Positions 21,121-38,273 of a stretch of 64,000 nucleotides of DNA are shown piece after piece (positions within the stretch are counted from its first letter, which is position 1; the number at the start of each line of letters is the position of its first letter). The stretch covers positions 2,856,484 through 2,920,483 of the forward strand of contig NZ_AP025523.1 of assembly GCF_027923555.1 (NCBI RefSeq), given 5' to 3'. The DNA is from Vulcanimicrobium alpinum. Its GTDB lineage: Bacteria; Vulcanimicrobiota; Vulcanimicrobiia; Vulcanimicrobiales; Vulcanimicrobiaceae. Position numbers and translations under genes: made by a program. The notes under the pieces are model-generated. The model saw only the letters and a list, made by a program, of their open reading frames with translations, was not told the DNA's origin and ran no database searches.

Positions 21121-21300
21121 GGAGCCCTGGACGGCGCTATCCCATTCGGGCACCCGCCTGGGATGCGGCAATACAGGCCTTTTCCCTCCCCACGATGCCG
21201 CAGCGGCTAGGAGATGATTTGCGCGCGGCGTACAAGCGTTGCGCCGCCGGCGCTTTCTTACGCGCGACCCATCAGCTCAACTGCGAAGGGATGCAACACG

Positions 21301-21951
21301 ATGACCCTCAAACTTTGGCTTCAGATCGCCGCCGGATCTGCTGCGCTTGCATTCCTCTGCGTCATCGAGGCGATCGGTTCGCTCCAAGTGCAGAATACGA
21401 CGGCAACGCTGCTCGTACCGAAATCATATCCGGCTGTTGCGGGCAGCGGCTTTCAGCCGGGTGCCGTCTTTCCGGCTACCGATCAAAGTATGACGCCTCA
21501 GAATGTTCGACTCTACGGATCGTTTATCAACGGAGACAGGAACACGGGAGACGCTTCGACCGCATGGTACGATGCCGTGCCGGATATCGCGTTGATGGTT
21601 TCCGGATATCCTGCGCGACCGGGACTTTCGCTGTCGGTCGATGTCGATGCCGGAGACCGCATCGTGCCGTTGCAAGTGACGGCATCGAATCCAGGTGAAC
21701 GGTGGGTTCAATTTCACGTTCCGATTCGTGAGGTTGCCGGAGCGAAGCGCTTTCGGATCCACGCTGTCGATCGTGCAACGACGTTTGAAGGATGGGTCGG
21801 ATTCTCCGAGCCCTTCGTCGTAGACACTTCGCAGCAATCACGAACCTTCGGTGCCGTCGGCAAAGTCGCCATCTTTATGGCTGCGTTCTTTTCCCTCGTA
21901 AGCGCTGCAATTTCGGTGTTCCTGTCGATACGAAGCGCTACGCTTCGTTGA
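21301..21951 (+). CDS. Membrane-anchored periplasmic protein with a beta-sandwich-like module
   Basis: 216 residues, function unknown. An N-terminal membrane segment (AGSAALAFLCVIEAIGSL), then about 130 residues of beta-rich sequence (VRLYGSFINGDRNTG, SGYPARPGLSLSV, GERWVQFHVPIREVAG, RFRIHAVDRATTFEGWVGF), then a second hydrophobic segment (GKVAIFMAAFFSLVSAAISV). The beta module closely resembles residues about 55-160 of the membrane protein at 38274-40433. ATG 21301 with GAAGGGATG upstream. Coupled to the following gene by a TTGA overlap. Confidence 0.6.
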   Translation: MTLKLWLQIAAGSAALAFLCVIEAIGSLQVQNTTATLLVPKSYPAVAGSGFQPGAVFPATDQSMTPQNVRLYGSFINGDRNTGDASTAWYDAVPDIALMVSGYPARPGLSLSVDVDAGDRIVPLQVTASNPGERWVQFHVPIREVAGAKRFRIHAVDRATTFEGWVGFSEPFVVDTSQQSRTFGAVGKVAIFMAAFFSLVSAAISVFLSIRSATLR

Positions 21952-22541
21952 CGCCCTCGCTCGTGATCGCGAAGTTCCTGCCGCTCGTCTTGGTCGTCAT
22001 CGCGGGAGGAATCACCATAGAAGCCTTTTCACTCGACGTCCACGCGGGCACGCCGCAAGGCTTGCCGCGCGCCCCGGCGGTTCGACCCATGCCGTCCAAG
22101 CTTAAGGACGACTGGGCTCAAACGCTACCGATGAAATCCGGGGAAACGCAAGCCACCATTGAAGCCGTATCGGTCGGTCGCGGAGCGGAACGAACCGTGC
22201 TCGGCGCCGACCGGACGGTTCTCCTTTCAGCCGGAGACCCGTCGCCCCTGAGCGTGAAAGGCTGGGCGATCGACGCCCCCGCAAATGCTCCCGCAGGCGG
22301 CGTCCTCGTACGCGTCGACGATGGTCGCCCGATCGTCGCGCGCTATGGCCTTTCTCGCCCGGACGTCGCCGCAGCGCTAGGAAACCCGGCACTGGAAGCA
22401 ACGGGATACAAGGCGCTGCTTGAGACGGCGCATCTTGCAAAAGGTGCTCATCGACTTCGCTTCTACGTGCTGGATGCGCACCGGACCGGCGTGTATCTGA
22501 TCCCGGACCATCCGACGCGAGTGCGGCTCGTGCGTCAGTGA
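21948..22541 (+). CDS. Membrane-anchored protein with one GW/RPDV module
   Basis: About 197 residues. An N-terminal hydrophobic anchor (LVIAKFLPLVLVVIAGGI) exposes the rest outside the cytoplasm. Residues about 85-195 carry the GW module seen in four proteins of this region: LSVKGWAIDAP, VLVRVDDGRPIVARYGLSRPDVA, GAHRLRFYVLDAHR. Function unknown; a carbohydrate-binding role is inference from its kinship with the Wzt C-terminal domain. Start TTG 21948 overlaps the upstream stop; GTG 21963 is the alternative. Confidence 0.6.
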   Translation: MTPSLVIAKFLPLVLVVIAGGITIEAFSLDVHAGTPQGLPRAPAVRPMPSKLKDDWAQTLPMKSGETQATIEAVSVGRGAERTVLGADRTVLLSAGDPSPLSVKGWAIDAPANAPAGGVLVRVDDGRPIVARYGLSRPDVAAALGNPALEATGYKALLETAHLAKGAHRLRFYVLDAHRTGVYLIPDHPTRVRLVRQ

Positions 22542-22556
22542 TACGATTCGGGTCGA

Positions 22557-23918
22557 TCAGGGGCGGAACGGACCGTCATGGACGAGCACAAGTTGCGCCG
22601 CATAGCCTCGTACCGTCACGGGGTTTGGATACAGCATGCGCAGATCGGCGTCGCTCGCGGTCCAAAAGTGCCTTAGCGTGACAAGAGACCGGATATCGTG
22701 CGCCTGGATACGGCGCATCTCCGCAACACCATTCACATCGGATCGTAAAGAGAGCACCGCGGACGCCGCTGCGCTGACAAGCACGGCAGACCGCAACTTG
22801 ATCGAGAGCGGCGCCCTGCGCAGAGCGCACACCGTCAATCCGACCAGCGCGATCCACAGCAGCCCGGAATACGTCGTATAGCGGCTCGCCAGCGCCTGAT
22901 CTATCCCGAACGCCGCCCGTCCGATGTCGGTCATCGTCCCGGCCAGCAGAGCGAAAATCCCGAGTGCGAGCCACGGCGCTTCGAGGTCCCCGCGACCGTG
23001 CTGTTTGCGGCGTGCGTATGATATTGCATAGGCACCGAATGCAGCGACCCCTACGGCCCCGATACACATCGGCAGTGCGATCTCTGGTGCGCTCGACCAG
23101 GCTAACGGCGCACCGAAGTACGCAAAGAGGTACCCAAGGACCTCAAAGGGATGGGTCAACACGTACGTGGGATCCGATTGCAGGCCGCCCCGCGACCAGC
23201 CATGCAGATACAGCACGGTCGCGACGCCGGCAGCGGCGATCCAAGCGATCGTCTGTTTGGGGCCGTCAACACGGCGGTCCAGGAGAATCAAGCACAGCCC
23301 AGCGGGCCAAAGCAGGAGCCCCGATGACATCGTGTAGCTCGCGAGAAACCCGACGCCGATGGCGAGGCGGAAAGCAAGCGGTGCCTCCCGTCCAACGATC
23401 AGCAGCCACACCATCGCGAACACGAAAAAAACGATCATGAACCACGCGAGCTGGAAGCCCCACATCCAATTGCCCGCCTGCGAGGCGCTGTAAAGGATGG
23501 CGCTTCCGAAGAGGAAGGATATTCCCAGCGCAACGCGAGACGCAGAACGACGCAGCAGATCGAAGAATAATGCCTGTGCGCACACGACGAACGCGATGCC
23601 GATCAATTCTTCGCGGACGACGTTCCAGCCGCGCCACTGTGCGAGCAACAGCATTAAAGAGTACGGGACGAACATCCGATGCTCGTTGTGCTGCGCCCAT
23701 AAATCCGCGAAACTCAGGGTGTGCTGATGCATTCTGATAACGAGGCTGGCGACTTCCCATTCATCCCATTGCGGAGCATTGACAGCCCAACGCACCAGCA
23801 TCGCCGCGATGGTGATTGGGAATAGGCACGCGACGAGAAGGCATGCGGCGGTCGCCGCTCCCGACAATCCGGGCTGCTCGGCGGTCGCGCGTTCGTCGAG
23901 CTGAACGTCAGCGGTCAT
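22557..23918 (-). CDS. Polytopic membrane protein, probable GT-C-like glycosyltransferase or polymerase
   Basis: About 453 residues with ten or more hydrophobic segments. The first periplasmic loop contains PQWDEWEVASLV, an acidic cluster placed as in GT-C fold enzymes that use polyprenyl-phosphate sugars. HNEHRMFVPYSLMLLL and NWMWGFQLAWFMIVFF follow. No family can be named. ATG 23918 is preferred; TTG and GTG codons lie just upstream. The start overlaps the end of the methyltransferase gene by about eleven bases, so the two are coupled. Confidence 0.6.
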   Translation of the reverse strand: MTADVQLDERATAEQPGLSGAATAACLLVACLFPITIAAMLVRWAVNAPQWDEWEVASLVIRMHQHTLSFADLWAQHNEHRMFVPYSLMLLLAQWRGWNVVREELIGIAFVVCAQALFFDLLRRSASRVALGISFLFGSAILYSASQAGNWMWGFQLAWFMIVFFVFAMVWLLIVGREAPLAFRLAIGVGFLASYTMSSGLLLWPAGLCLILLDRRVDGPKQTIAWIAAAGVATVLYLHGWSRGGLQSDPTYVLTHPFEVLGYLFAYFGAPLAWSSAPEIALPMCIGAVGVAAFGAYAISYARRKQHGRGDLEAPWLALGIFALLAGTMTDIGRAAFGIDQALASRYTTYSGLLWIALVGLTVCALRRAPLSIKLRSAVLVSAAASAVLSLRSDVNGVAEMRRIQAHDIRSLVTLRHFWTASDADLRMLYPNPVTVRGYAAQLVLVHDGPFRP

Positions 23919-25584
23919 CCGCACCAAATCGACGGGCGAGGAGCCTGAGAGGCCGGGTCAGTCGCCACGATTTCGAGTCGACCACGCTTTGCAGGGCCTC
24001 GTGCGCTGCGTCTGCAAGCGAACGCAACTCTCGTTCCATCTGAGCCCATCGTTCGCGCTCCGATTCAAGCGCAGCCCGAGCTTGGTCCGCGTCGTCCTGA
24101 AGAACCGCTGCACGGTTCTGCAGAGCATCGCGCTCGGCACGAGCGCGCCCGAGCTGTTCGCTTCCGCGCAGGATCTGCTCGCTCAAGGCCTGCGTGTAGC
24201 CTGCTTCCCTGACCGATACCTCGCGTGCGTGTTGTTCGATGGTTTGGGCAAGTTCGCGTTCCACGATTCGCGCGCGATCTGCCCAGCCCAGCATCTCCCG
24301 CTGGATCTCCCCTCTTTCGACCTCGAGCGCAGCACGGGAATGCTCCGCCTCGCTGAGCGAAGCTTCGAGCTCAAGAACCCGGGCCTGCAGCGACGTCACC
24401 TGCTGCAGCTTTTCCGATCCGTCGGATTTATAAAGCGCTTCCAACTCTTCATAACGGCTCTCTTGGTATATCCGCAGCGCATCGGCTTTCTCAAAAGCTG
24501 CGTGTGCGTCGCGCGCATCCTCTTCCAATGATCGAATCTTCCTGTCAGACTCGTCAAGCCGCTCGCGCAGGTTATATGCATCACGCTCTCGCTCGGCGCG
24601 TTCCCTATTATAAAGTTCCGCTAATTCGTCGTAGCGATTTGCATTGTGCAAACGCTCCGCGTCCGCTACGCGAAACGCTTCGTGCACCGCATCCAGTTCG
24701 GCCCGCAGATCATTTCGGCTTGTATTTGTAGACGTGAGTGCCGCCCGGCCGGCGCTCAATTCGCCCGGCAACGTTCCATCGAGTCGCTCCACCATATTGC
24801 GCAAAGCCTGCATTTCCCGAGCGGTAGCGCCGAAGACGTCATCCGACGGGTCCAGAAATGCAGACTCGACCAGGTCTTCGATCGGTTCGTCACTGGCGAC
24901 CGCAAGGAAATACGTTGGATCGATGAGTGCCGGCAGGGCGTCGAGCACGTCATCACCCCGGCCGGCGAACCATATCGGACGTTCGACGACGGCGTTTGCA
25001 AGGGGGTGCACTACCGACGCTGCCGCGATGCGCTGTCCATAAATTCTGACGTGACGAAAGCGAGCGGAGAGCAATTCCCGAAACTCTGAAAAGTACAGTT
25101 CGCGGACGTGGAACGGATTGGAATACTGCGGAATATCCGAATACACACGCTTGTTCGGAGTCGAGATGACGAGCGTACCGCCGGGCGCTAGCACGCGTTT
25201 GATTTCATCGACCATGCGTTCGTGCTCGGCGATGTGTTCAAGCGTTTCAAACGACGATACGAAGTCAAAGCCTGCGTCGGCAAGAGGCAGTGCACTCGCC
25301 GATCCGACGACAAACCGCAGGTTGGAAGCATAGTACACACTTCTGGCGCGCTCGACGGAGCTTTCGTCGATGTCGACGCCGACGGCCTGGGCTGCCGTAG
25401 TAGCAAGCAGCGCGGTACCGTATCCTTCGCCCGAAGCGACGTCCAGAACGCGTCGTCCGGCGGCGAGACGTCTCGCAATAGCATAGCGGTGCACATGCTC
25501 GTAGCGAATCTGTCCCATTAGACCCGGGACATAGCGTTCGCCGGTGAACGTCAGTTCGCGCAGTGTCGACATGGTCCGCAACAT
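23908..25584 (-). CDS. SAM methyltransferase with long C-terminal coiled coil (WbdD-like layout)
   Basis: 558 residues. N-terminal class I methyltransferase (residues about 10-230): FTGERYVPG, VLDVASGEGYGTALLA (SAM loop), VGVDIDESSVERAR, FETLEHIAEHERMVDEI, LAPGGTLVISTPN. From about 265 to 530 is a nearly continuous heptad-rich coiled coil, ending in the basic SKSWRLTRPLRLLARRFG. E. coli WbdD pairs a methyltransferase/kinase with a coiled-coil ruler that sets O-antigen length; here no kinase is seen. A chain-terminating methyltransferase with built-in ruler is inference from layout and the neighbouring Wzm/Wzt. ATG 25584 has AAGGG seven bases upstream. Confidence 0.8.
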   Translation of the reverse strand: MLRTMSTLRELTFTGERYVPGLMGQIRYEHVHRYAIARRLAAGRRVLDVASGEGYGTALLATTAAQAVGVDIDESSVERARSVYYASNLRFVVGSASALPLADAGFDFVSSFETLEHIAEHERMVDEIKRVLAPGGTLVISTPNKRVYSDIPQYSNPFHVRELYFSEFRELLSARFRHVRIYGQRIAAASVVHPLANAVVERPIWFAGRGDDVLDALPALIDPTYFLAVASDEPIEDLVESAFLDPSDDVFGATAREMQALRNMVERLDGTLPGELSAGRAALTSTNTSRNDLRAELDAVHEAFRVADAERLHNANRYDELAELYNRERAERERDAYNLRERLDESDRKIRSLEEDARDAHAAFEKADALRIYQESRYEELEALYKSDGSEKLQQVTSLQARVLELEASLSEAEHSRAALEVERGEIQREMLGWADRARIVERELAQTIEQHAREVSVREAGYTQALSEQILRGSEQLGRARAERDALQNRAAVLQDDADQARAALESERERWAQMERELRSLADAAHEALQSVVDSKSWRLTRPLRLLARRFGADDR

Positions 25585-25644
25585 ATTTGGACCCTTGTCG
25601 CGATCCCCTGGTCAACGAGGATTTTGACCGGCAGGAGACAGATA

Positions 25645-25677
25645 ATGCCGTCGTGTCGACCTTGGCGTCTCACATGA
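25645..25677 (+). CDS. Possible 10-codon leader peptide ahead of the double-GW-module gene
   Basis: ATG 25645 has the best ribosome site of the area (AGGAG at 25633-25637, spacing seven) and reads ten sense codons (MPSCRPWRLT). Its TGA then overlaps the ATG of the next gene as ATGA (25674-25677). This could be a translational-coupling leader, or the SD may simply serve a downstream start. Confidence 0.35.
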   Translation: MPSCRPWRLT

Positions 25678-26417
25678 AGGTGCGCGGATACGTAGACGAG
25701 ATTTATGCTGTTCCGCAACCGGCGGGCGGGAGGATTCCACTGGGGAGTTCGGTCGTGATCACGGGATGGGCTGCCCGCGACGATCAGGCGCAAGCGGTAA
25801 TGGCCGTCAACATCGACGGTCGATGCTTCCCCGTCACGGTCGGGCTGGACCGGCCGGATGTCCGAGTTCTACTCGGTGAGCATTACGGAGCTACCGGCTT
25901 TCAAGCGGTGATCTCTAGCGCCGTCATCGGAGCCGGCAGAAAGTACGTTGAGGTGACGGCTGATGGTTGGCGCCTCGCAGAACCTCACGTCCTTTTCCTC
26001 GCTGAAGCCGGCAGTCTCTACGGATTACGGCAACTTCCCATCTTGCCGAACGGACGCATCGACACCGCTTTTATTGCAGGAGCGGACAACCCGGAAGCGG
26101 CGCAGCCCTCACGTGCGAGAGAAACCGACACACTGGTCATCCGGGGTTGGGGGTTCGATCGCGATCGCATGCGCAAGTACACTGCGGGCTTCGCGTTTAT
26201 CGACGAAACCGTAGTTCATGTTGCCGGCGCGACCGGATTCAGGCCCGACGTTGCGGAGGTCTACGCAACCCCGGAGATGGGCGGCTGCGGCTTTCGGCTG
26301 CACGTGCCGCTTCGAGGAATCGGGGCGGGACATCATACCGTGCAGGTAGCGCTGGGCGATTCGGCAACGTCGCCGCTCGTCCGCGTACCGCAAACGATTA
26401 CCCTCAACGTCGCCTAG
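25674..26417 (+). CDS. Protein made of two tandem GW/RPDV modules
   Basis: 247 residues, no signal peptide or membrane segment. Copy 1 (about 4-115): GYVDEI, VVITGWAARDD, VNIDGRCFPVTVGLDRPDVR, GATGFQAVI, GAGRKYVEV. Copy 2 (about 130-245): GRIDTAF, LVIRGWGFDRD, ATGFRPDVAEVY, GCGFRLHVPL, GAGHHTVQV. The same module ends Wzt and starts the methyltransferase at 29407. Function unknown; cytoplasmic carbohydrate recognition is inference. ATG 25674 is chosen because the module begins right there; the frame is open back to GTG 25563. Confidence 0.65.
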   Translation: MKVRGYVDEIYAVPQPAGGRIPLGSSVVITGWAARDDQAQAVMAVNIDGRCFPVTVGLDRPDVRVLLGEHYGATGFQAVISSAVIGAGRKYVEVTADGWRLAEPHVLFLAEAGSLYGLRQLPILPNGRIDTAFIAGADNPEAAQPSRARETDTLVIRGWGFDRDRMRKYTAGFAFIDETVVHVAGATGFRPDVAEVYATPEMGGCGFRLHVPLRGIGAGHHTVQVALGDSATSPLVRVPQTITLNVA

Positions 26418-26425
26418 GAGCCAAG

Positions 26426-29410
26426 TTGACCCTTTCACTTCCTGCGCGGCGCGCATTCCGCGACCCGGATTACCGGGCGTGGTACATGCACAATTGTCCC
26501 GACGAGACCGAACTCGCATCGCAAAGAACGCAGAGTCTTATCGGCGATTATCCTCTCGTATCGATTGCCGTTCCAATCTGGCGGCCGCATTCGTACATGC
26601 TTCGGGAAATGCTCGAGTCTCTTGCCGATCAGAGTTATCCCTATTGGGAGGCCTGTCTGGTCGTCACGGCAGATGAAGATGATGAAAACATCAAACTCTT
26701 ACGGCAGTTCGCTGACGCTGACGAGCGATTCATCATCAACGAATTGCCCCGCAACAAGGGCATCGGTGGTAATACGAACGCTGCAATCGCCGCATGTCGC
26801 GGCGATTGGATCGCGTTCGTCGACCATGACGACGCGTTGACTCCCGACGCGCTCTTTCACGTCGTAAAGGCCTTCGGCGCAGCGGACGTCGTCTACTCCG
26901 ACTTCGATTACATTGACGACCGGGATGGCTCGCTCGGCGATCCGCTTTTTAAACCTGAATGGTCCCCGGAACTCCTCTATGCTGCCAACTACCTTACTCA
27001 TCTCACGGTCGTACGGGCAGGCCTCTTGCGCGACATCGGAGGAATGGCGGAGGATCTCGACGGGGCCCAAGATTGGGACTTGCATCTGCGCCTTGCCGAG
27101 CGGACGCAGCGCATCATTCACGTGCCCCGCGTGCTTTACCATTGGCGCCGGCATGACGGATCGACCGCGCTTTCCCACCGAGCGAAGGAGGGAGTGGGCC
27201 GTAGCCAGTCCAGGTCACTGAACCGTCATTTCAGCCGCAAAGGCTTGCCCGCGCATGCCCACGTTAATGATGAGGGGCACGTTCGGATCGGCTGGCGATG
27301 GCCTCGGAAACCGCTCGCGTCCATCATCATCCCGACGAAGGACAAGGTTGACCTTCTTCGTGCTGCGATCTCGTCGATCATCGAACGCACTCGGTATGAA
27401 GCCATCGAGATCGTGGTGGTCGATACCGGCAGCTGCAACCAGACAACCTTCGCCTACTACGAGGAACTGCGTCGCGATCCGCGCATACGCATACTCGACT
27501 ACGCGTTGCCGTTCAACTGGAGCGCCGTCAATAATTTTGCCGTACGACATAGTGCTGGCGAGTTGCTGATATTCCTCAACAACGATGTCGAGGTCATCGA
27601 CGGCGATTGGGTTGACGAACTGGCCGGCTGGGCGCTGCATCCCGAGATCGGAGCGGTCGGCGCGTTGCTGTTGCGTGCAAACGGTGACGTGCAGCACGCC
27701 GGGATCGTCGTCGGCCTCGAGGGCTTCGCGAACCATCCGTTCGCGGACACGGCTGTATCGGTCGGGAATGCGCACGGCAGTCCGCTGTGGTATCGCAACT
27801 ATCTGGCAGTGACCGGTGCGTGTTTGGCGGTTCGACGCGACGTGTTCGATACCGTCGGAGGTTTCGACGAGGCCTTCATTCTTTGCGGCAGCGACGTTGC
27901 GTTTGGGATCGAAGCATACAGGCGCGGTTTTCGCAATGTGTACACGCCGTACGCTCGGCTTTATCACCTCGAGTCGGCAACGCGCGGACACGAGATACCG
28001 GACGGTGATTTCGCCGTCTCGGCGGTCTATTATCGGCCGTATCTCGAGGCCGGCGACCCGTACTTCTCCCCGAACTTGAGCCATTGGCGGAAACCGCTCG
28101 CTCCACGGCATCCCGATGAGCAGACGCCGTACGATTACGTCACTCAGTTCCTGCGTCGCCGATCGATGACGCCGCCGCGAAGCCGCACGGAGGCAGAGCA
28201 CGTCGTTGAGTGGTTCGACTTGGATGAAAGTGAGATCGCTGCCTACCGTTCGCAACCGACGACCGGCTTGCGTCCGACCACCTCGATTGCATGGTTTTTA
28301 CCGACGTTTACCGTCGCTGCGTTCGGTGGAATCGCGACGATCCTCCGTTTTGCCGCGCACTTCGCTAACACGTATCACGTAAACAATCACTTCGTTCTGT
28401 GCGGCAGCGGAGACCGGGCAACGTATGTCGACCTCATGCGTCGTTGGTTGCCGGAACTGAGGGTTGACGACGTCACCATCGGCGACTCGACGGCGGCGCT
28501 CCAAGATGTGCCGCCGTGCGATGCGGCGATATGCAGCTTGTGGACGACGGCGTATGCCCTCGCACGATTTCAACGGACGCCGAGAAAGTTCTATTTCATT
28601 CAGGATTGGGAACCCGGGTTTTACGCAGCGGGCACGACCAGCGCGATGGTGGAGAACACCTATCGCCTCGGATTTTACGGGATCGCCAACACGATCTCAC
28701 TCGCGCGTTCGTATGCCGAGGAATTCGGCGGCTCTGCAACCTGGTTTACACCCGCGGTGGACCACACGGTTTTTCGTCCGAAAGCACGGGAACCGCGCCA
28801 ACTGGATCCGCTGCGTACGAGGCGTGTCTTCGTCTATGCGCGTCCAGGCACGCCGCGGAACGCTTTTGAACTAATCTGCGCAGCGGTACGGCGTCTGCGT
28901 ATGCGACACGGTCCGGGCATCGAACTGATCGCAGCGGGGGGCGATTTCTCTGCGGCCGAGTACCAGGTCGCCGGTGCGATTACGTCACTCGGCCTGTTGC
29001 CCTTCGAAGAAACTCCTGCCCTTTATCGTTCTTGCGATGTCGGTGTTGCGTTGATGATGACGCGCCACCCCTCATACATTCCGTTGGAACTGATGGCTTC
29101 AGGATGCCCGGTAGTAGCAAACGTGAACCGATGGAATAGCTGGTTCTACCGCGACGGCGAGAACGCGCACCTGGCGTTGCCGTCGCCAAGCGGATTGGCT
29201 GACGCCGTCGAGCGCGTCGCGTTCGACGATCTGTACGCGGAAAAACTGCGCTTCGGCGGATTCGAGACAATTGCACGATTCCATGCCGATTGGAACCCTG
29301 AGATGGACCACGTCTATGCTTTTCTGTGCGATCCCGAAACGCAGGCTCGCTCGCTCGATTCGGCCCGCTTTCGCCCATCGACGCCGCGCTTTGCGGCCGG
29401 CAGAGCATGA
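26426..29410 (+). CDS. Three-domain glycosyltransferase: tandem GT2 plus WsaF-like rhamnosyltransferase
   Basis: 994 residues. GT2 domain 1 (about 45-260): VSIAVPIWRP, FVDHDDALTPDALF, PEWSPELLYAANYLTHL. GT2 domain 2 (about 290-560): ASIIIPTKDKVDLLRAAI, FLNNDVEVIDGDWVDEL, ITGAC-type VTGACLAVRRDVFDTVGGF. C-terminal domain (about 625-975): SIAWFLPTFTVAAFGGIATI, FYFIQDWEPGFYAAG, and SYIPLELMASGCPVV, the pattern of WsaF-type beta-rhamnosyltransferases (GT-B fold). Probably builds a multi-sugar repeat from nucleotide sugars such as dTDP-rhamnose. Start TTG 26426 is supported by AGGAG five bases upstream. Overlaps the next gene as ATGA. Confidence 0.88.
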   Translation: MTLSLPARRAFRDPDYRAWYMHNCPDETELASQRTQSLIGDYPLVSIAVPIWRPHSYMLREMLESLADQSYPYWEACLVVTADEDDENIKLLRQFADADERFIINELPRNKGIGGNTNAAIAACRGDWIAFVDHDDALTPDALFHVVKAFGAADVVYSDFDYIDDRDGSLGDPLFKPEWSPELLYAANYLTHLTVVRAGLLRDIGGMAEDLDGAQDWDLHLRLAERTQRIIHVPRVLYHWRRHDGSTALSHRAKEGVGRSQSRSLNRHFSRKGLPAHAHVNDEGHVRIGWRWPRKPLASIIIPTKDKVDLLRAAISSIIERTRYEAIEIVVVDTGSCNQTTFAYYEELRRDPRIRILDYALPFNWSAVNNFAVRHSAGELLIFLNNDVEVIDGDWVDELAGWALHPEIGAVGALLLRANGDVQHAGIVVGLEGFANHPFADTAVSVGNAHGSPLWYRNYLAVTGACLAVRRDVFDTVGGFDEAFILCGSDVAFGIEAYRRGFRNVYTPYARLYHLESATRGHEIPDGDFAVSAVYYRPYLEAGDPYFSPNLSHWRKPLAPRHPDEQTPYDYVTQFLRRRSMTPPRSRTEAEHVVEWFDLDESEIAAYRSQPTTGLRPTTSIAWFLPTFTVAAFGGIATILRFAAHFANTYHVNNHFVLCGSGDRATYVDLMRRWLPELRVDDVTIGDSTAALQDVPPCDAAICSLWTTAYALARFQRTPRKFYFIQDWEPGFYAAGTTSAMVENTYRLGFYGIANTISLARSYAEEFGGSATWFTPAVDHTVFRPKAREPRQLDPLRTRRVFVYARPGTPRNAFELICAAVRRLRMRHGPGIELIAAGGDFSAAEYQVAGAITSLGLLPFEETPALYRSCDVGVALMMTRHPSYIPLELMASGCPVVANVNRWNSWFYRDGENAHLALPSPSGLADAVERVAFDDLYAEKLRFGGFETIARFHADWNPEMDHVYAFLCDPETQARSLDSARFRPSTPRFAAGRA

Positions 29411-30348
29411 CCGACGCGGGGATCGCGACCTTTTCGCATATTGATCGCTTCAGTATCTTTAATCGAACGCTCGGCATCGAAGGCTGGCTCTTTTCCCCCA
29501 CCCGCAATCTGGTGCGACTCGAGTTGCGCTTCGCACGAGGCGCGTCGGTAAGCGTCCTTTGCGGCTTGCCGAGCCAGGATGTCGAAGCGGCCTACGGAGC
29601 GGAGGCCGCAGATTGCCGTTTTGCACTCTATACGTCCGTCGAACAGCCTGATGATATCGTGATCAACGCGACGTTGTTTGCCTGGTTTTCCGACGGCACA
29701 ACGGCCACACTTGACGACTTAGGGACGCGTGATAAAGGCTCCGAGCCGGCTCACCGGCTAACCGGCAAGTTCATCGCCATCACCACGGCCCTGCCGCCGG
29801 GAAACTTCTTGGAGATCGGCGCCCGCGCTCGATCCGGAAACACCTACCGTCAGTTCGTTCCTGCGGGTTGGAACTATGTCGGCTTTGACATGCGGCCGGG
29901 TGACAATGTCGACGTCGTAGGCGATGCGCACGCGCTCGCATCGTACTTTTCCCCGGAATCTTTTCAAGCCGCGATGGCGATCTCAGTATTCGAACATTTG
30001 CTCATGCCGTGGAAATTTGTCCTAGAACTCAATCGCGTTCTCAGCATCGGCGGCGTCGGCTATTTCATGACGCACCAAACGTACGCCGTGCACGACGCAC
30101 CCTGGGACTTCTGGCGCTTCTCGAACGACGCTTGGCCGGCACTCTTCAATCGAGCGACGGGATTCGAGGTGCTCGAAGCACACGTCGGAGAGCCCGCCTT
30201 TATTGTCCCTGTTCGCTGCAGCCCGGGGCATGCGGCCGACGCGCCCGGCTATCTCTCCTCGTCCGTCCTGGTTCGAAAGATCGGGCACACGACTCTGCGA
30301 TGGGATGTTGATCTCTCGGAGGTGATCGAAAGCCCGTATCCTGCGTGA
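29407..30348 (+). CDS. SAM-dependent methyltransferase with N-terminal GW module
   Basis: 313 residues. The first 110 are a divergent GW module (SHIDRFSIFN, LGIEGWLFSP, CGLPSQDVEAAYG). Residues about 125-300 are a class I methyltransferase-like domain: GNFLEIGARARSG (SAM loop), YVGFDMRPGDNVDVVGDAH, AMAISVFEHLLMPWKFVLEL, GGVGYFMTHQTYAVHDAPWD. Probably methylates a sugar of the surface glycan; the substrate is unknown. ATG 29407 overlaps the preceding stop. Confidence 0.75.
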   Translation: MTDAGIATFSHIDRFSIFNRTLGIEGWLFSPTRNLVRLELRFARGASVSVLCGLPSQDVEAAYGAEAADCRFALYTSVEQPDDIVINATLFAWFSDGTTATLDDLGTRDKGSEPAHRLTGKFIAITTALPPGNFLEIGARARSGNTYRQFVPAGWNYVGFDMRPGDNVDVVGDAHALASYFSPESFQAAMAISVFEHLLMPWKFVLELNRVLSIGGVGYFMTHQTYAVHDAPWDFWRFSNDAWPALFNRATGFEVLEAHVGEPAFIVPVRCSPGHAADAPGYLSSSVLVRKIGHTTLRWDVDLSEVIESPYPA

Positions 30349-30361
30349 TCGTCGTGGGAGA

Positions 30362-32344
30362 CTACGTCCGGATCAAAAGCTCGTCACGAAAGACTTCGCG
30401 TTCGTCCGGGACGATCGCCAACTTGAAGTATGGGGCGGTAAGCGCGAGATTCACGTTGTAATACGGATCGGGCCGCTCACGAATAGACCAGCGCTTGATC
30501 AGCATTTCTTGTTCGATGAGATTTCGCTCGGCACGGCTTCGATCAAGATCGGATCCACGCGATAGGGATTCGTGGTGATACAATTCGACGTGAGGGAGAT
30601 AGACGTTTCGCAGGCCGCGAGCGCCTAGGCGAAGACAGAAGTCCACGTCGTTGTACGCGATGGAAAAATCTTCGTCGAATCCATGTACTGCTTCGAACGC
30701 CTCGCGGCGGACCATCATGCATGCAGCGGTGACGGCGCTATAATTGTTGACGGTAACCACGGCACCGAAGTGGTTCAGCTCGTACCGCTGCATGCGATAA
30801 TTTACATGACCGGCCGCGCCGCCAAGACCCAGCACGATTCCGGCGTGCTGGAGGGTGTTATCCGGGAAAAGGAGCTTGACGCCGACGGCGCCGATCGACT
30901 TGCGCTGCACCTGTTCGAGCATCATCTCGATCCATTCTTGGGTGATCACCTCGGTATCGTTGTTGAGAAAGAGCAGATACGGCGAATCGCTCGCAGCGGC
31001 ACCAGCATTGATGAGCCGCGAGAAGTTGAACGGCTCATCGCGTTCGATTACGCGGAACCGCTGCTCGTCCCACTTTCGCCAGCGGCGTAAGACGACGTCG
31101 GTCTCCTTTTTCTTCGAGCCATTGTCGACGATCAGCACTTCGAAATCGTGATAGGTCGATTTGAGGAAAATGGACTTTAGACAATGATCGAGGATATCGG
31201 CTTTGTCCCGCGATGGGATGACGATCGAGACCTTGCCGGGCTTGCGGAGTTCGTATCGCGGAATATATAAGCCATGGCAGTTCGGAACGGGATCCACCCG
31301 TCCCGGCTCGCCGCGCCGCTCCATCGCCTCTGCGATAGCCTTCCGAGCCGCAATGTACGCGTACGGCTTCGCGTCCGTGCTCCCCGCCGCCGACTCGGCG
31401 TGCTTACGCCAGCTATACAGCACCCGTGGGATATGGTGAATGCGCTGGCTGCTTTCGGTAAAGCGCAGAACGAGATCGTAGTCCTGACTGCCGTTAAGTT
31501 CAGGGCGGAACCCGCCGATCTTTTCGACGATGCTGCGCCGGTAAATGCCAAAGTGCGACGTGTACATCTTCGAGAGAAATGAGTCCGGGGACCAATCGGG
31601 CTTAAAGAACGGCTCCTGCCGCTTGCCGTTCTCGTCCAACTTGTCTTCGTCGGTATAAATCATGTCGATTTCTGGATCGACATTCACTGCGTGCGCGACT
31701 TCGAAAAGCGCATCAGGTGCGATGAGATCGTCGTGATCCAGCAGACCGATATACTCGCCCGTCGCCATCGCAATCGCGGAATTGGACGCCTCGGAGATGT
31801 GCCCGTTTTGCAGACGAAACGCGACGCGAATGCGTTCGTCGCCGGCGGCATATCGCTCCAATATCTCACGAATGTGGGGCGACGGCGAATTATCATCCGC
31901 GATGCACAGGGTCCAGTACGGGTAGGATTGAGCAAGGACAGATTCGATCGCTTCGATCAAGTAGCGCCGTGGAGTTTCGTACACGGGCATGACGACACTG
32001 ATGACGGGGCGCAGGGGAAGCAGGCGCGAGAGCGACCGCTGCAATTCGAGTTCGTGAGGTTGCGCCGCGTGCGTCAAAAGCCACTGTTCGTATTCGGAGC
32101 GTGCGAATGGCCCGGCATCACGGCCCGCTGCGCTGGGCAGTTCTCCCCGCTCATCGCTATATGCAGCAAGACGCCCGGTGCGGGTACCGGCAAGGCGGCC
32201 GGCGAGCGCCAGCATCGAACGAAGACGAGCGAATTTGCTGCGGTCCATCGCAGCATAGGCGCGTTGCAGTTCACGTAGCCGCGCACGGCTGGCGGCAAAC
32301 TCGACGGCAAGCGCATGGGTTCGCCCGATTTCCGAACTGCTCAT
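30362..32344 (-). CDS. Tandem GT2 glycosyltransferase (rhamnosyltransferase-like)
   Basis: 660 residues. After about 110 residues of helix, GT2 domain 1 has ISVVMPVYETPRRYLIEAIE, CIADDNSPSPHI, GLLDHDDLIAPDALFEVA and FFKPDWSPDSFLS. Domain 2 has VSIVIPSRDKADILDHCL, LIVDNGSKKKETD, LLFLNNDTEVITQEWIEMML, ACMMVRREAFEAVHGFDE and YNDVDFCLRLG. This is the double-GT2 type common in O-antigen clusters, with DxD-like NND and DHDD metal sites. Two domains may add alternating sugars. ATG 32344; divergent from the 32415 gene. Confidence 0.88.
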   Translation of the reverse strand: MSSSEIGRTHALAVEFAASRARLRELQRAYAAMDRSKFARLRSMLALAGRLAGTRTGRLAAYSDERGELPSAAGRDAGPFARSEYEQWLLTHAAQPHELELQRSLSRLLPLRPVISVVMPVYETPRRYLIEAIESVLAQSYPYWTLCIADDNSPSPHIREILERYAAGDERIRVAFRLQNGHISEASNSAIAMATGEYIGLLDHDDLIAPDALFEVAHAVNVDPEIDMIYTDEDKLDENGKRQEPFFKPDWSPDSFLSKMYTSHFGIYRRSIVEKIGGFRPELNGSQDYDLVLRFTESSQRIHHIPRVLYSWRKHAESAAGSTDAKPYAYIAARKAIAEAMERRGEPGRVDPVPNCHGLYIPRYELRKPGKVSIVIPSRDKADILDHCLKSIFLKSTYHDFEVLIVDNGSKKKETDVVLRRWRKWDEQRFRVIERDEPFNFSRLINAGAAASDSPYLLFLNNDTEVITQEWIEMMLEQVQRKSIGAVGVKLLFPDNTLQHAGIVLGLGGAAGHVNYRMQRYELNHFGAVVTVNNYSAVTAACMMVRREAFEAVHGFDEDFSIAYNDVDFCLRLGARGLRNVYLPHVELYHHESLSRGSDLDRSRAERNLIEQEMLIKRWSIRERPDPYYNVNLALTAPYFKLAIVPDEREVFRDELLIRT

Positions 32345-32414
32345 CGGTGCACCCTCTTCCCGACCCTCTCAGGCCGATCATGCACAGGCACGCACCGCGG
32401 AAACGCGAATCCGA

Positions 32415-33236
32415 ATGTCGCTGATGACTGCGATTTCAACGGCGGCGGGCACTACGAACCACGGGGCGGCGCTTCTTCCCGCCGAAAGCGACGCGCGTGC
32501 GGCGACGGACTTCTGCCGGGCGCTGGCCGCGGATTCGGTCTATGATGCCTCCAACGACGGAGGGGTGCTGGCATCGGCGCTTGAGGATCAAGCGATCGAC
32601 GTGACGCGCTATCCGTCTCCCCGACCAGGCCGATTCGGTCTCGCCACGGCGCTCGGCCTGCCCGCTGGGTCAGCCTCCGCACGGGATACCCTGATCCGCG
32701 AATTGAGCGACCGGTCAGATACTGTGCTTCTCTCGTGGGACTGGAGTGAGGTCGGACGCCCGACGGCGGGCGTCGCGTATTCTTGGCTCATTGCCCTTGC
32801 CCAAGCGGGCCTGCACGTGGATTTCATTGCCTCGGGCGATGGGACCCTGCGGAATTTATTGCTGTTTCGTCGCTCCGCGGAGCCTCTGACATCGCGCCTG
32901 CTTCAAACGATGGCGCACGTCATCGTCAATACACATCGAGCGCGTGCAGCGCAAGAGGAGCTCTCCAGCCTTCGTTCCACCCGAGCGACCGATTTAACGC
33001 AAATCGAAAGGCTCGACACGGAGAATCGCCTGCTGCGCCAACGCATCGACGCCCATAGCCGCGAGATCGCAGCGCTTCGCGGCGCCTTGGCGGATGTAAA
33101 CGACCTACTTAGCCACGAACTCGAGGCGGTACACAGCGCCGAAGCGGTTGTCGCTGAGGACATCGACGCACTTACTGCTAGCCCGCTATGGCGCCTCAAG
33201 CTCAGATTAGCCGGCGTCAAGCGAGGCCGCGAATGA
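32415..33236 (+). CDS. Unknown protein with C-terminal coiled coil, upstream of wzm
   Basis: 273 residues, not recognised. Residues about 20-170 are alpha/beta without a clear motif (SDTVLLSWDWSEVG, LHVDFIASGDGTLRNLL). Residues about 180-245 form a coiled coil (QIERLDTENRLLRQRIDAHS). The C-terminus SPLWRLKLRLAGVKRGRE is a basic amphipathic tail like that of the coiled-coil methyltransferase. Its TGA overlaps the wzm ATG, which suggests a role with the exporter. ATG 32415 or 32424. Confidence 0.55.
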   Translation: MSLMTAISTAAGTTNHGAALLPAESDARAATDFCRALAADSVYDASNDGGVLASALEDQAIDVTRYPSPRPGRFGLATALGLPAGSASARDTLIRELSDRSDTVLLSWDWSEVGRPTAGVAYSWLIALAQAGLHVDFIASGDGTLRNLLLFRRSAEPLTSRLLQTMAHVIVNTHRARAAQEELSSLRSTRATDLTQIERLDTENRLLRQRIDAHSREIAALRGALADVNDLLSHELEAVHSAEAVVAEDIDALTASPLWRLKLRLAGVKRGRE

Positions 33237-34051
33237 CGGTGTTGACAACCGCATCGCAGCAGAAAACCTCCTTCAGCGGCCGTTTCGCTACGTATGCCGC
33301 CCTTGTTTCCACGCTCGCGGCGCGCAATCTCAAAATCCGCTACCGCGGTTCCTCGCTCGGCGTTTTTTGGTCGCTTTCGAATCCGCTGCTCATGACGGGC
33401 GTCTATACGGCAATTTTCGGCACGGCGTTTGCAAAGTATTACGGCGGTTCGATTTTCGATTACGTTCTCGCCGTCTTCGTTGCTCTGTCTGTCCTCGCGT
33501 TTTTTTCCTCGGCAACCTCGCAGGCACTGAGCTCTATCGTCGCGGGAGGGCCGCTCCTGAATAAGATTGCTCTTCCCTGCAGCGCCTTTCCCGTGAGCAC
33601 CGTGACCGCGAACACGTTCCAATTGGTCATCGGTACGGTTCCGCTCCTGATGATCGTTGCGCTTTTGCGGACGCATTCCATCATCAATGTGGCAGCGATC
33701 GCAGGCCCTCTCGCGGGCCTTATCCTTACGTCGATGGGGGTCGCTCTGGCCCTCGCCGCGCTCTACGTCTATTTTCGAGACCTGGCGTACCTCTATGAAG
33801 TCGTGACGTTCATCATCTACATGACTACACCCGTCTTCTACCCGGCGAGCTTCGTGCCGCCGAGCGTTCGCACGTACCTGGAACTCAATCCCGTCGCGGT
33901 GATCGTCAGTTCTCTGCGCGATATCGTGCTGAATCCGCAGATGCCTCATCTCCGTGCAATCGCGCTTCCGGTCGTTACCGGCTTTGCGGTCTTCGCACTC
34001 GGAATCGCCATCTTCGCGCCTCTGCGCCGAGACTTTCTCGACCTGCTGTGA
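33233..34051 (+). CDS. wzm: Polysaccharide ABC transporter permease
   Basis: Inner-membrane half of an ABC exporter that carries undecaprenyl-linked glycan out of the cytoplasm. 272 residues, ABC-2 type: a cytoplasmic N-terminus with LAARNLKIRYRGSSLGVFWSLSNPLL (family hallmark), then six hydrophobic segments (FDYVLAVFVALSVLAFF, VTFIIYMTTPVFYPASF, LPVVTGFAVFALGIAIF). GAGG lies seven bases before ATG 33233. Overlaps wzt as GTGA. Confidence 0.92.
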   Translation: MTVLTTASQQKTSFSGRFATYAALVSTLAARNLKIRYRGSSLGVFWSLSNPLLMTGVYTAIFGTAFAKYYGGSIFDYVLAVFVALSVLAFFSSATSQALSSIVAGGPLLNKIALPCSAFPVSTVTANTFQLVIGTVPLLMIVALLRTHSIINVAAIAGPLAGLILTSMGVALALAALYVYFRDLAYLYEVVTFIIYMTTPVFYPASFVPPSVRTYLELNPVAVIVSSLRDIVLNPQMPHLRAIALPVVTGFAVFALGIAIFAPLRRDFLDLL

Positions 34052-35187
34052 GACCCGCAATCCACTTCTCCAACGTTACGCTTTGGCGTCGAACTCAGGA
34101 AGAGTACGCTTACGATCTCAAAGGCACCGTCTTTCGACTGCTGCGCCGCCAGCACGCGCGGACTACACGAAGGCGTACGATACACGCCGTCGACGTGACC
34201 ATCAATCGCGGAGAGAAGGTCGCACTAATCGGGCGCAACGGCAGCGGCAAATCCACGCTTCTGAAGCTGGCCGCGGGCATAATCGCGCCGACGCAAGGCA
34301 CCGTTACGGTGGAGGGGAGCCTGGCGGCCCTCATCGAGTTAGGAGCGGGCTTCGATCCCGACCTTACCGTGATCGAGAACATCGTGTTCTACGGCGTGCT
34401 GCTTGGGTTCTCACGGTCTCACATGAAGCAGCGTATTCCCGAAATTCTCCAATTTGCGGAACTTGAAAATTACGGCAACGCTCCCCTCAAGACGCTTTCG
34501 TCAGGAATGTCCGCGCGTCTCAGCTTTGCGATTGCCACCGACGTGCGGCCGGAAGTTCTCTTGATCGACGAAGTTCTCTCCGTCGGCGACGAGGCGTTTC
34601 GAAACAAATCCACGGCGCGAATCCAGCGCTTTTGGGACGAGCACTCGACAATCGTGCTCGTATCGCACGACCTGAGCTTCATTGCAAATCATTGCGAGCG
34701 CGCAATCCTCATCGATTCGGGAGAGATTGTTGCGGACGGTCGCGCCTCCGATGTTGTGGCTCGGTACATTGCGGACGTCGCCGCGACATCCGAGGAACGA
34801 TTCGGAAGCCAAGCGGAGTCAGTGTCGAACAAACCGGCATTCGGCCATCTCGACGATGTGTCTCTTGAAGCCGGGACGCTCATCGTGCGCGGCTGGGGCT
34901 ACATCGACGCATCGCGCCGGGGAGACGCCATAGGCGTATTCATCGATGGCGAACTGGTCCTCAACGCGCCCTATGGATCGTTACGGCCGGACGTTGCCGC
35001 GATCTTCGAAGTGTATCATCAAGACGTCGGCTTCGACATTCACATTCCGCTCCGTGCGACCTCGAGCGAACATCGCGTTGAATGCGCAGTGTTCGATGAA
35101 GTTGCCGGCATGTACCGGCCGATCGACCACGTTCGATTCGTGCGGTGCACGATGCCGGATCCGGCTATGACGAACGCAGGTCGATAA
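34048..35187 (+). CDS. wzt: Polysaccharide ABC transporter ATPase with GW-module C-terminal domain
   Basis: 379 residues. Nucleotide-binding domain (about 1-235): Walker A GRNGSGKST (62-70), signature LSSGMSARL (150-158), Walker B LLIDEVLSVGDEA (171-183), switch VSHD (205-208). Residues about 265-375 are an extra domain with FGHLDDVSL, LIVRGWGYID, VFIDGELVLNAPYG, LRPDVAAIF and EHRVECAVFD, the GW module of this region. In E. coli O9a-type systems the Wzt C-terminal domain binds the capped end of the glycan; here the module presumably does so (inference). GTG 34048. Confidence 0.93.
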   Translation: MRPAIHFSNVTLWRRTQEEYAYDLKGTVFRLLRRQHARTTRRRTIHAVDVTINRGEKVALIGRNGSGKSTLLKLAAGIIAPTQGTVTVEGSLAALIELGAGFDPDLTVIENIVFYGVLLGFSRSHMKQRIPEILQFAELENYGNAPLKTLSSGMSARLSFAIATDVRPEVLLIDEVLSVGDEAFRNKSTARIQRFWDEHSTIVLVSHDLSFIANHCERAILIDSGEIVADGRASDVVARYIADVAATSEERFGSQAESVSNKPAFGHLDDVSLEAGTLIVRGWGYIDASRRGDAIGVFIDGELVLNAPYGSLRPDVAAIFEVYHQDVGFDIHIPLRATSSEHRVECAVFDEVAGMYRPIDHVRFVRCTMPDPAMTNAGR

Positions 35188-35214: not shown

Positions 35215-36003
35215 CTACACGTGTACGCTGCGCGTCGGCGCGCCGGACGCCGGCTCCTCGACGTCGGCTCGCCGGCGATAGTCGCCGCGCGAAAACCACT
35301 TCTCGATCAGCGCGTACAACACGATGAAGAGGTAGCGGCTGCCCATCTCTTTGATCTTGAACTTGGAGACGCCGCCTTTGCGGTTGTACCAATTCGTCGG
35401 GATCACATTCCAGCTGTAGCCGCGCACGATCGCTTTGAGCGGGATCTCTACCGTGATGTTGAAATGCGGCGAGAGGATCGGACGGACGCCGTCGATCACC
35501 TCGCGCCGGTAGGCTTTGAACGCGTTGGTGACATCGTTGTAGCGGATCCCCATCACGGCCGCGATGAAGGCGTTTGCGCCGCGGTTGAGCGCGCGCTTCA
35601 GCCACGGATAATCGACCACGCGTGCACCGCGCATGAAGCGCGAACCGAAGGCGCAATCGTACCCATGCTGCAGCAGCCGCCAGTATCCGACGACGTCCCG
35701 CGCGTCGTCTGACGCATCGGCCATCACGATGCAGACGGCGTCGCCGGAGAAATTGTCGAGCCCGGTATGAATCGCGTTGCCGAAGCCGCCCGGGCGAAGA
35801 TTGCGCACGCACCGCACCTGCGGCCATCGCGCGCTGACCAAGGCGATCACCTCGGAGGTGCGATCGGTCGAGTGATCGTCGACCACGACGATCTCGAACG
35901 GAATCTGCTCCGCCGCTAGCGTCTCGGCGAGATCGAGCAGGGTCGCCTCGACCGTTGCTTCCTCGTTGTGCGCGGGGATGACGATCGAGTACAGCTCAGA
36001 CAC
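35215..36003 (-). CDS. GT2 glycosyltransferase, dolichyl-phosphate-mannose-synthase-like
   Basis: 262 residues, single GT2 domain: [68 protein letters not shown] (D-x-S-D metal site) and [10 protein letters not shown]-terminal hydrophobic stretch ([14 protein letters not shown]) suggests membrane association. Likely transfers a sugar to a polyprenyl phosphate or lipid-linked glycan. GTG 36003 overlaps the upstream epimerase stop by eight bases. Confidence 0.85.
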
Positions 36004-37117: not shown

Positions 37118-38194
37118 TTACGACCAAAGCGGCGCGACGAGCCGTTCGTTCTCCCGGATCCAGGAGTAGAGCTGCTCCATCGTCTGTTTCGGCGTTTGGC
37201 ACGGAAACCAGTTCAGATCACCGGTCACCCGCGCGTTGTCCGTAATGTACAGCCGGACATCGGATGGGCGGTTCTCCGCAACGCGCGTCATCTCCACCCG
37301 GTTGCCGGTCACCTCCTCGCACAGTTGCGTCAACTCGAGCAGGGAGAGGCTCGACGCCGTCCCCCCGCCGACGTTGTAAACCCGCCGGGGAAGGGCGTCG
37401 ATCCGGCCGATCTGATCGAGTACGAGGTCGGCCAGCTCGTCGACGGCGACGAAATCGCGAACCTGCTTGCCCGTTCCGCCGTAGCCGATGAAACTGAGCG
37501 GGCGCTTGAAATAGTGACGCCCCATCCACAGCGCGAAAACGCCCTGGTCAACCTTGCCCATCTGCCACGGACCGGTGATCACCCCGCATCGGTCGATGAC
37601 GTAGCGCAGACCGTACATCTGCGCGTACTCCTCGAGGATCATCTCGCAGGCGAGCTTCGTCGTCCCGTACAGCGAGCGTGCCCCCTCCAGCGGAAAGTCC
37701 TCACCGATGCCCGCCGAAGTCACGCCCCGGATCGCCTGCTCCGGTGCGATGACGAACCGCGTCGGTGCTTCTTCGTACGCGATCGCCTCGATCGCCGCCA
37801 CGGGGTACACGCGGCTGGTGGAGATGAACACGACGTCGGCGCCGTCACGGCGGGCAAGGTCGAACAGGTTGACCGATCCGACCAGATTCGTATCGACGAC
37901 GTACGAGGGCCCGCTCTCGTACGCCGCGAGAACGGACGGTTCGGCGGAGCAGTCGACGATCAGATCGAAACGTGTCTTCGGGATGACCAAGTCGTCGGGG
38001 CGACGGATGTCGGCGTGAACGAATTCCACCCGGGCCGCGGCAAGTCGCGGAAGATTCCATTCCGATCCCCGCCGCTTCAAATTGTCGGCAACGACGATTC
38101 GTGCTTCGGGATTCGCAGCGCGGAGGCGCAGCGCCAGGCTGGACCCTACGAATCCTGCGCCGCCGGCGACGAGTATGCACGCGTGTGGAATCAT
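37118..38194 (-). CDS. NAD-dependent nucleotide-sugar epimerase/dehydratase
   Basis: 358 residues: ILVAGGAGFVGSSLALRL (NAD loop), VVADNLKRRGSEWNLPRL, DCSAEPSVLAAYES, VFISTSRVYPVAAI and SLYGTTKLACEMI (Tyr/Lys). GPWQMGKVDQGVFALWMGRH and RDFVAVDELADLVL resemble paratose synthase/NAD epimerases that act on 6-deoxyhexoses. First gene of the operon with the 35996 epimerase and the GT2; together they probably make and transfer an unusual deoxysugar. ATG 38194; longer frames upstream are antisense to the membrane gene at 38274. Confidence 0.82.
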   Translation of the reverse strand: MIPHACILVAGGAGFVGSSLALRLRAANPEARIVVADNLKRRGSEWNLPRLAAARVEFVHADIRRPDDLVIPKTRFDLIVDCSAEPSVLAAYESGPSYVVDTNLVGSVNLFDLARRDGADVVFISTSRVYPVAAIEAIAYEEAPTRFVIAPEQAIRGVTSAGIGEDFPLEGARSLYGTTKLACEMILEEYAQMYGLRYVIDRCGVITGPWQMGKVDQGVFALWMGRHYFKRPLSFIGYGGTGKQVRDFVAVDELADLVLDQIGRIDALPRRVYNVGGGTASSLSLLELTQLCEEVTGNRVEMTRVAENRPSDVRLYITDNARVTGDLNWFPCQTPKQTMEQLYSWIRENERLVAPLWS

Positions 38195-38273
38195 TGCGTT
38201 GCGTTGGCTACGGCGTCGTCGCCACGGAGCCTTCAACAAGGAACGCTTCGCGAACTGCGGAGAACGGCGGCGG

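Follow-up and report, generated by a model that had tools for sequence, protein, structure and literature searches.

The ligand of the canonical carbohydrate-binding domain of Wzt is a methylated sugar. Capped chains cannot be exported without this domain, which also works in trans; it is a jelly roll and dimerises by swapping strands at its C-terminus (PMC9445017). Some Klebsiella Wzt proteins are without this domain, and for the K. pneumoniae O7 terminator ORF6, which joins a methyltransferase to a kinase, an Ig-like CBM has been predicted (PMC11231755). The C-terminal domain of EfAmi1, an amidase of an E. faecium prophage, is absent from the crystal, and carbohydrate binding has only been proposed for it (PMC10167349).

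Vulcanimicrobium alpinus WC8-2 is a Gram-negative bacterium in which lipopolysaccharide is present and whose genome comprises 3.50 Mbp with 68.4% GC (PMC9758169). The host genome analysed here is a single contig of 3,508,363 bases, and its close relatives carry the label Candidatus Eremiobacterota. In the window, i.e., the whole 64,000-nucleotide stretch of DNA that was analysed (66.5% GC), a Wzm/Wzt exporter (33188-35187) is encoded together with Pfam-matched methyltransferases (29407-30348 and 23908-25584) that are candidate chain modifiers, and five copies of one module, termed A, B1, B2, C and D, are spread over four neighbouring proteins. The protein carrying C resembles the K. pneumoniae O7 terminator ORF6 in combining a methyltransferase with an Ig-like domain in a Wzm/Wzt locus, but its module is N-terminal and the window methyltransferases have no matched kinase domain; no WbdD-like kinase family was found among the Pfam matches of the proteins scanned, which covered part of the locus, including these methyltransferases. 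The principal features are as follows, with bit scores from the window-free profile described below.

21214..21951, + strand: anchored protein upstream of A, overlapping the start of the A protein by 4 bases
22152..22535, + strand: module A, extracytoplasmic part of the membrane-anchored protein 21948-22541; 92.0 bits
22557..23927, - strand: multi-pass membrane protein, resembling GT-C by inspection only; putative partner of module A
25677..26006, + strand: module B1, in the soluble two-module protein 25674-26417; 42.3 bits
26049..26414, + strand: module B2, in the same two-module protein; 58.6 bits; Z 17.4 to D
29422..29724, + strand: module C, N-terminal to the methyltransferase 29407-30348; 22.4 bits; AF2 model
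33188..34051, + strand: Wzm-type ABC permease; Pfam ABC2_membrane E=6e-11; NCBIfam Wzm/RfbD E=8e-12, below cut-off
34048..34788, + strand: Wzt-type nucleotide-binding domain; ABC_tran E=2.7e-22
34834..35145, + strand: module D, C-terminal tail of Wzt; 45.6 bits; AF2 model; not PF14524
35215..36003, - strand: GT2, polyprenyl-phosphate sugar synthase-like by inspection; Pfam Glycos_transf_2

Module copies in the locus

A detection profile trained on relatives only, with zero window sequences, returned five matches in the window, all of which were the claimed copies. The first-pass annotation had described, from the letters and translations, a module with the order GW, an IDG strand, RPDV, GF or GY and GxH at these positions in four proteins; the positions, the translations and the motif order were all recovered, and the profile search places the copies in one homologous module across the four proteins. 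Its description of C as divergent is also borne out, since the RP of RPDV is missing from C, which reads PSQDV instead. Against the same profile, C gave E = 3e-5, and the best of 2000 shuffled decoys reached 10.6 bits. Smith-Waterman Z-scores (1000 shuffles) were highest for B2-D (17.4), A-D (9.5), A-B1 (8.3) and A-B2 (6.6), lower for B1-B2 (4.2), B1-D (3.8), C-D (3.7) and C-A (3.3), and about 1 for C-B1 and C-B2; A, B1, B2 and D are thus clearly connected, and C weakly.

Hydropathy identifies a transmembrane segment N-terminal to the module in A and none in B, C and D, so that, as far as sequence tells, the modules lie on both membrane faces, as had been proposed. The TTG start of the A protein overlaps the preceding stop (TTG/TGA), and beyond module C the protein 29407-30348 matches Pfam Methyltransf_11. 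A four-copy profile detected no significant further copy elsewhere in the genome (best other E = 0.4), and in scans of the window proteins and the phylum copies the module was unnamed in both Pfam and NCBIfam.

Predicted fold and relation to Big_7

The AF2 model of D (mean pLDDT 82, pTM 0.72) is an Ig/FnIII-like sandwich that includes a short "RPDV" helix; it is composed of strands 22-31, 34-42, 51-56 and 59-64, a helix at 71-77, and strands 85-91, 97-107 and 112-124. The model of C (pLDDT 78.6, pTM 0.71) has the strand order of D about 13 residues earlier, with a poorly modelled last strand and low confidence past residue 104. The structure prediction suggested as a check by the first-pass annotation yields the same predicted order for both copies (E-E-E-E, helix, E-E-E); both models were built on alignments of module rows only, which makes them less than fully independent as evidence. 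Among the best structural matches of D are the FnIII-like domains of chitinase A, PelI, Ihog and CbhA (Z 8.1-8.6), and those of C are other sandwiches (best Z 9.0), where a Z near 8 may reflect merely a common arrangement. The FnIII-like N-terminal domain of chitinase A is like D in fold (84 residues superposed at rmsd 2.2, Z 8.4), but the sequence relation is undetectable and the Z-score lies within the range of common folds. By Foldseek alone, D had no match below E=0.006, and Wzt domains were absent among the matches listed, an absence that does not count against a structural relation to them.

Comparison with members of Big_7 (PF17957) by hhalign gave 73% with a 53-row alignment of the module and 92% with a 38-row alignment, against control maxima of 1.9% (column-shuffled) and 1.3% (reversed), and some Acidobacteria copies (L126, L123) score above the Big_7 cut-off over the same stretch of residues. 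In the Pfam scan of the window proteins, no copy reached the Big_7 gathering cut-off (24.1 bits), and the 53 phylum copies included one match (E=0.13). The module and Big_7 share the strand order and a "VDG ... l..G.H.l" core; unlike Big_7, the module has the GW motif and, between "VDG" and "GF", a GxxRPDV-helix insert of about 20 residues. Profile comparison and predicted models together show the module as an Ig/FnIII-like beta-sandwich related to Big_7 and set apart by this insert. Its most conserved residues (GW, R-DV, GF and GxH) are structural as easily as ligand-binding, and the W in strand B corresponds to the core Trp of FnIII folds.

The exporter and the tail of Wzt

The GTG start of wzt overlaps the wzm stop, and the best PDB match of Wzt is A. 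aeolicus Wzt, covering query residues 45-249 only. Module D, C-terminal to the nucleotide-binding domain and beside Wzm, occupies the position of the known Wzt domain PF14524 of E. coli O9a and A. aeolicus. Both follow the nucleotide-binding domain and both are beta-sandwiches, but there is no sequence-profile relation between them, and the known domain is a strand-swapped jelly roll; D was modelled as a monomer. The first-pass annotation had linked the module to the glycan-binding tail of O9a-type Wzt, but membership in PF14524 is rejected: in hhalign the module reached 3.2-8.7% against Wzt_C members, where two halves of Wzt_C found one another at 97.5%, and a profile search found zero PF14524 matches in this genome (a control of 14 genomes had matches in two).

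Wzt-like matches occurred in 48 genomes of the phylum. Among the matches listed, with up to 29 candidates scored per genome, Wzt carries the module only here and in one distant family, in which the gene L030:778-2820 (G134; the same gene as L191:7892-9934) encodes a Wzt nucleotide-binding domain, a GW/RPDV module and a sulfotransferase, in this order; at this number of candidates, divergent fusions may have escaped the search. No module was found on other Wzt proteins of the phylum, whose matches were confined to the nucleotide-binding domain. Wzt proteins of several relatives of the same genus or family bear a different tail of about 85 residues with "LYLVRDGxRH"-like motifs (L037:14538-15548, L034:11475-12497, L046:2050-3366, L048:13060-14088 and L042:4432-5451), and a scan of the L037 protein gave no Pfam match in this tail. 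Acidobacterial Wzt matches that reach query residues 274-303 proved on inspection to have other tails.

In the tree, the nearest neighbour of D is B2, with support of 86/88, which is below the usual threshold, in an alignment of about 100 columns that leaves many forks open. This placement, together with the module-less Wzt of the relatives, makes it probable that the tail arose by copying inside the locus, and a copy of B2 is its likely, though not certain, source. Wzt has been fused to the module twice independently, which suggests that O-antigen exporters can exchange their substrate-reading tail for one of unrelated origin; the fusions also offer a direct way to test if quality control in export requires a particular fold or just a tethered glycan binder.

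Distribution and proposed role of the module

The module is present in 32 of 149 genomes of the phylum and in 30 of 149 genomes of the Acidobacteria group. In the phylum, copy numbers reach nine per genome, and the copies usually share a contig and a region. It was also found in Acetobacteraceae, Cellulomonas, Acidobacteria, Thermomicrobiales, Modestobacter, Binatia and Leptolyngbya, and spans at least five phyla, attached to GT2, WbsX, DUF2142-type membrane enzymes, sulfotransferase, methyltransferase, PhyH, sulfatase and amidase domains; a homologue of the 35215-36003 GT2 in genome G125 is fused to a transmembrane segment and a module (L046:7857-9470). The query of the wider search was the consensus of the 53-row alignment, a back-translated scan of which yielded no conserved stretch. 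The same consensus gave no match in viral contigs, plasmids and phages, so that no phage link was found at this sensitivity. Residues 204-296 of the PDB 8c4d sequence, i.e., the C-terminal domain of EfAmi1, align with the module profile, including the RPDV region (E=2.8e-4), which makes this domain the only experimentally handled relative of the module. Some secreted proteins of Actinobacteria (L057, L060), part of them Amidase_2 proteins, have four to five modules in tandem.

Co-occurrence with Wzm, which the first-pass annotation had proposed as a check, was found: Wzm is present in 24 of the 32 module genomes and in 30 of the 117 others (Fisher p=5e-7, kinship ignored), and in all 13 genomes with several copies. 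In the gene maps of relatives, the neighbours of wzm/wzt include a gene for a tandem-GT2 protein and at least one for a soluble tandem-module protein; four relatives also encode a module-methyltransferase close by. The earlier interpretation stands in so far as the four proteins share a homologous module that, judged by sequence, is placed on both membrane faces. The module is not peculiar to Wzm/Wzt systems and occurs widely on many kinds of protein.

Most likely, the module binds glycan and is a mobile accessory of proteins that handle glycans, the company it keeps making glycan recognition a reasonable inference. Its users in the cytoplasm would be the two-module protein B, the methyltransferase C and Wzt with its tail D; on the outside, its user would be the anchored protein A, encoded beside the multi-pass membrane protein. 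On Wzt, D probably stands in for the unrelated PF14524 and keeps the end of a completed or methylated chain at the transporter. Where the Wzt of a relative is module-less, the neighbouring tandem-module proteins may supply this function in trans. Such trans-acting proteins, if real, could account for exporters without the canonical domain. The whole account, in which a Big_7-related, mobile, glycan-binding accessory serves as a Wzt stand-in with a tail copied from B2, is considered fairly probable. It describes a widespread bacterial domain that has no Pfam model of its own and is carried by many envelope-glycan enzymes.

Somewhat unlikely, by comparison, is an Ig-like contact or spacer role, in which the copies would tie polymerase, methyltransferase, exporter and membrane partner into a complex without touching glycan. 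Ig/FnIII folds are frequently spacers or protein contacts, and such a role would suit the fold, the several copies in a single locus and the tandem-module proteins that have no enzyme domain. It would also suit the conserved pairing of the anchored module with one membrane-protein family: 8 of the 16 phylum matches to 22557-23927, a protein that itself gave no Pfam match, adjoin or are fused to a module, and in the cyanobacterium Leptolyngbya (L113) homologue and module form one protein (E=1.4e-30). However, the module also occurs alone on enzymes and on secreted amidases across many phyla, with no common protein partner, and what its carriers have in common is glycan chemistry.

That a single exchangeable module reads one and the same polysaccharide end on the marking enzyme (C), the reading exporter (D), a soluble escort (B) and the extracytoplasmic partner (A), as a shared "address tag reader" in place of the canonical Wzt domain, with the escort taking over in trans where Wzt has no module, is regarded as doubtful. 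A handover, in which the modules bind the same glycan in turn, B or C giving the chain to Wzt and A receiving it outside, is improbable. The modules do lie on both membrane faces of one locus, and D and B2, as nearest tree neighbours, could share a ligand; yet A falls outside the B and D groups in the tree, and the Wzt of most relatives is without a module. In the same tree, B1 groups with the first module of the relatives' three-module proteins (support 98/82).

Least credible is a chance match of C, as a short N-terminal extension of the methyltransferase, since its low pairwise scores to B1 and B2, its missing RP and the low model confidence past residue 104 are outweighed by a score of 22.4 bits with an independent profile, about twice the decoy maximum, by the strand order shared with D, by clear modules N-terminal to methyltransferases beside wzm/wzt in other relatives, and by its grouping with methyltransferase modules in the tree (92/54).

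Elsewhere in the locus, the product of 26147-29410 is a large glycosyltransferase that contains two GT2 units and, at its C-terminus, a GT domain of WsaF-like type. The membrane proteins 21214-21951 and 38082-40433, which had zero Pfam matches above the cut-off, share a second, different extracytoplasmic domain (phmmer E=1.5e-10).
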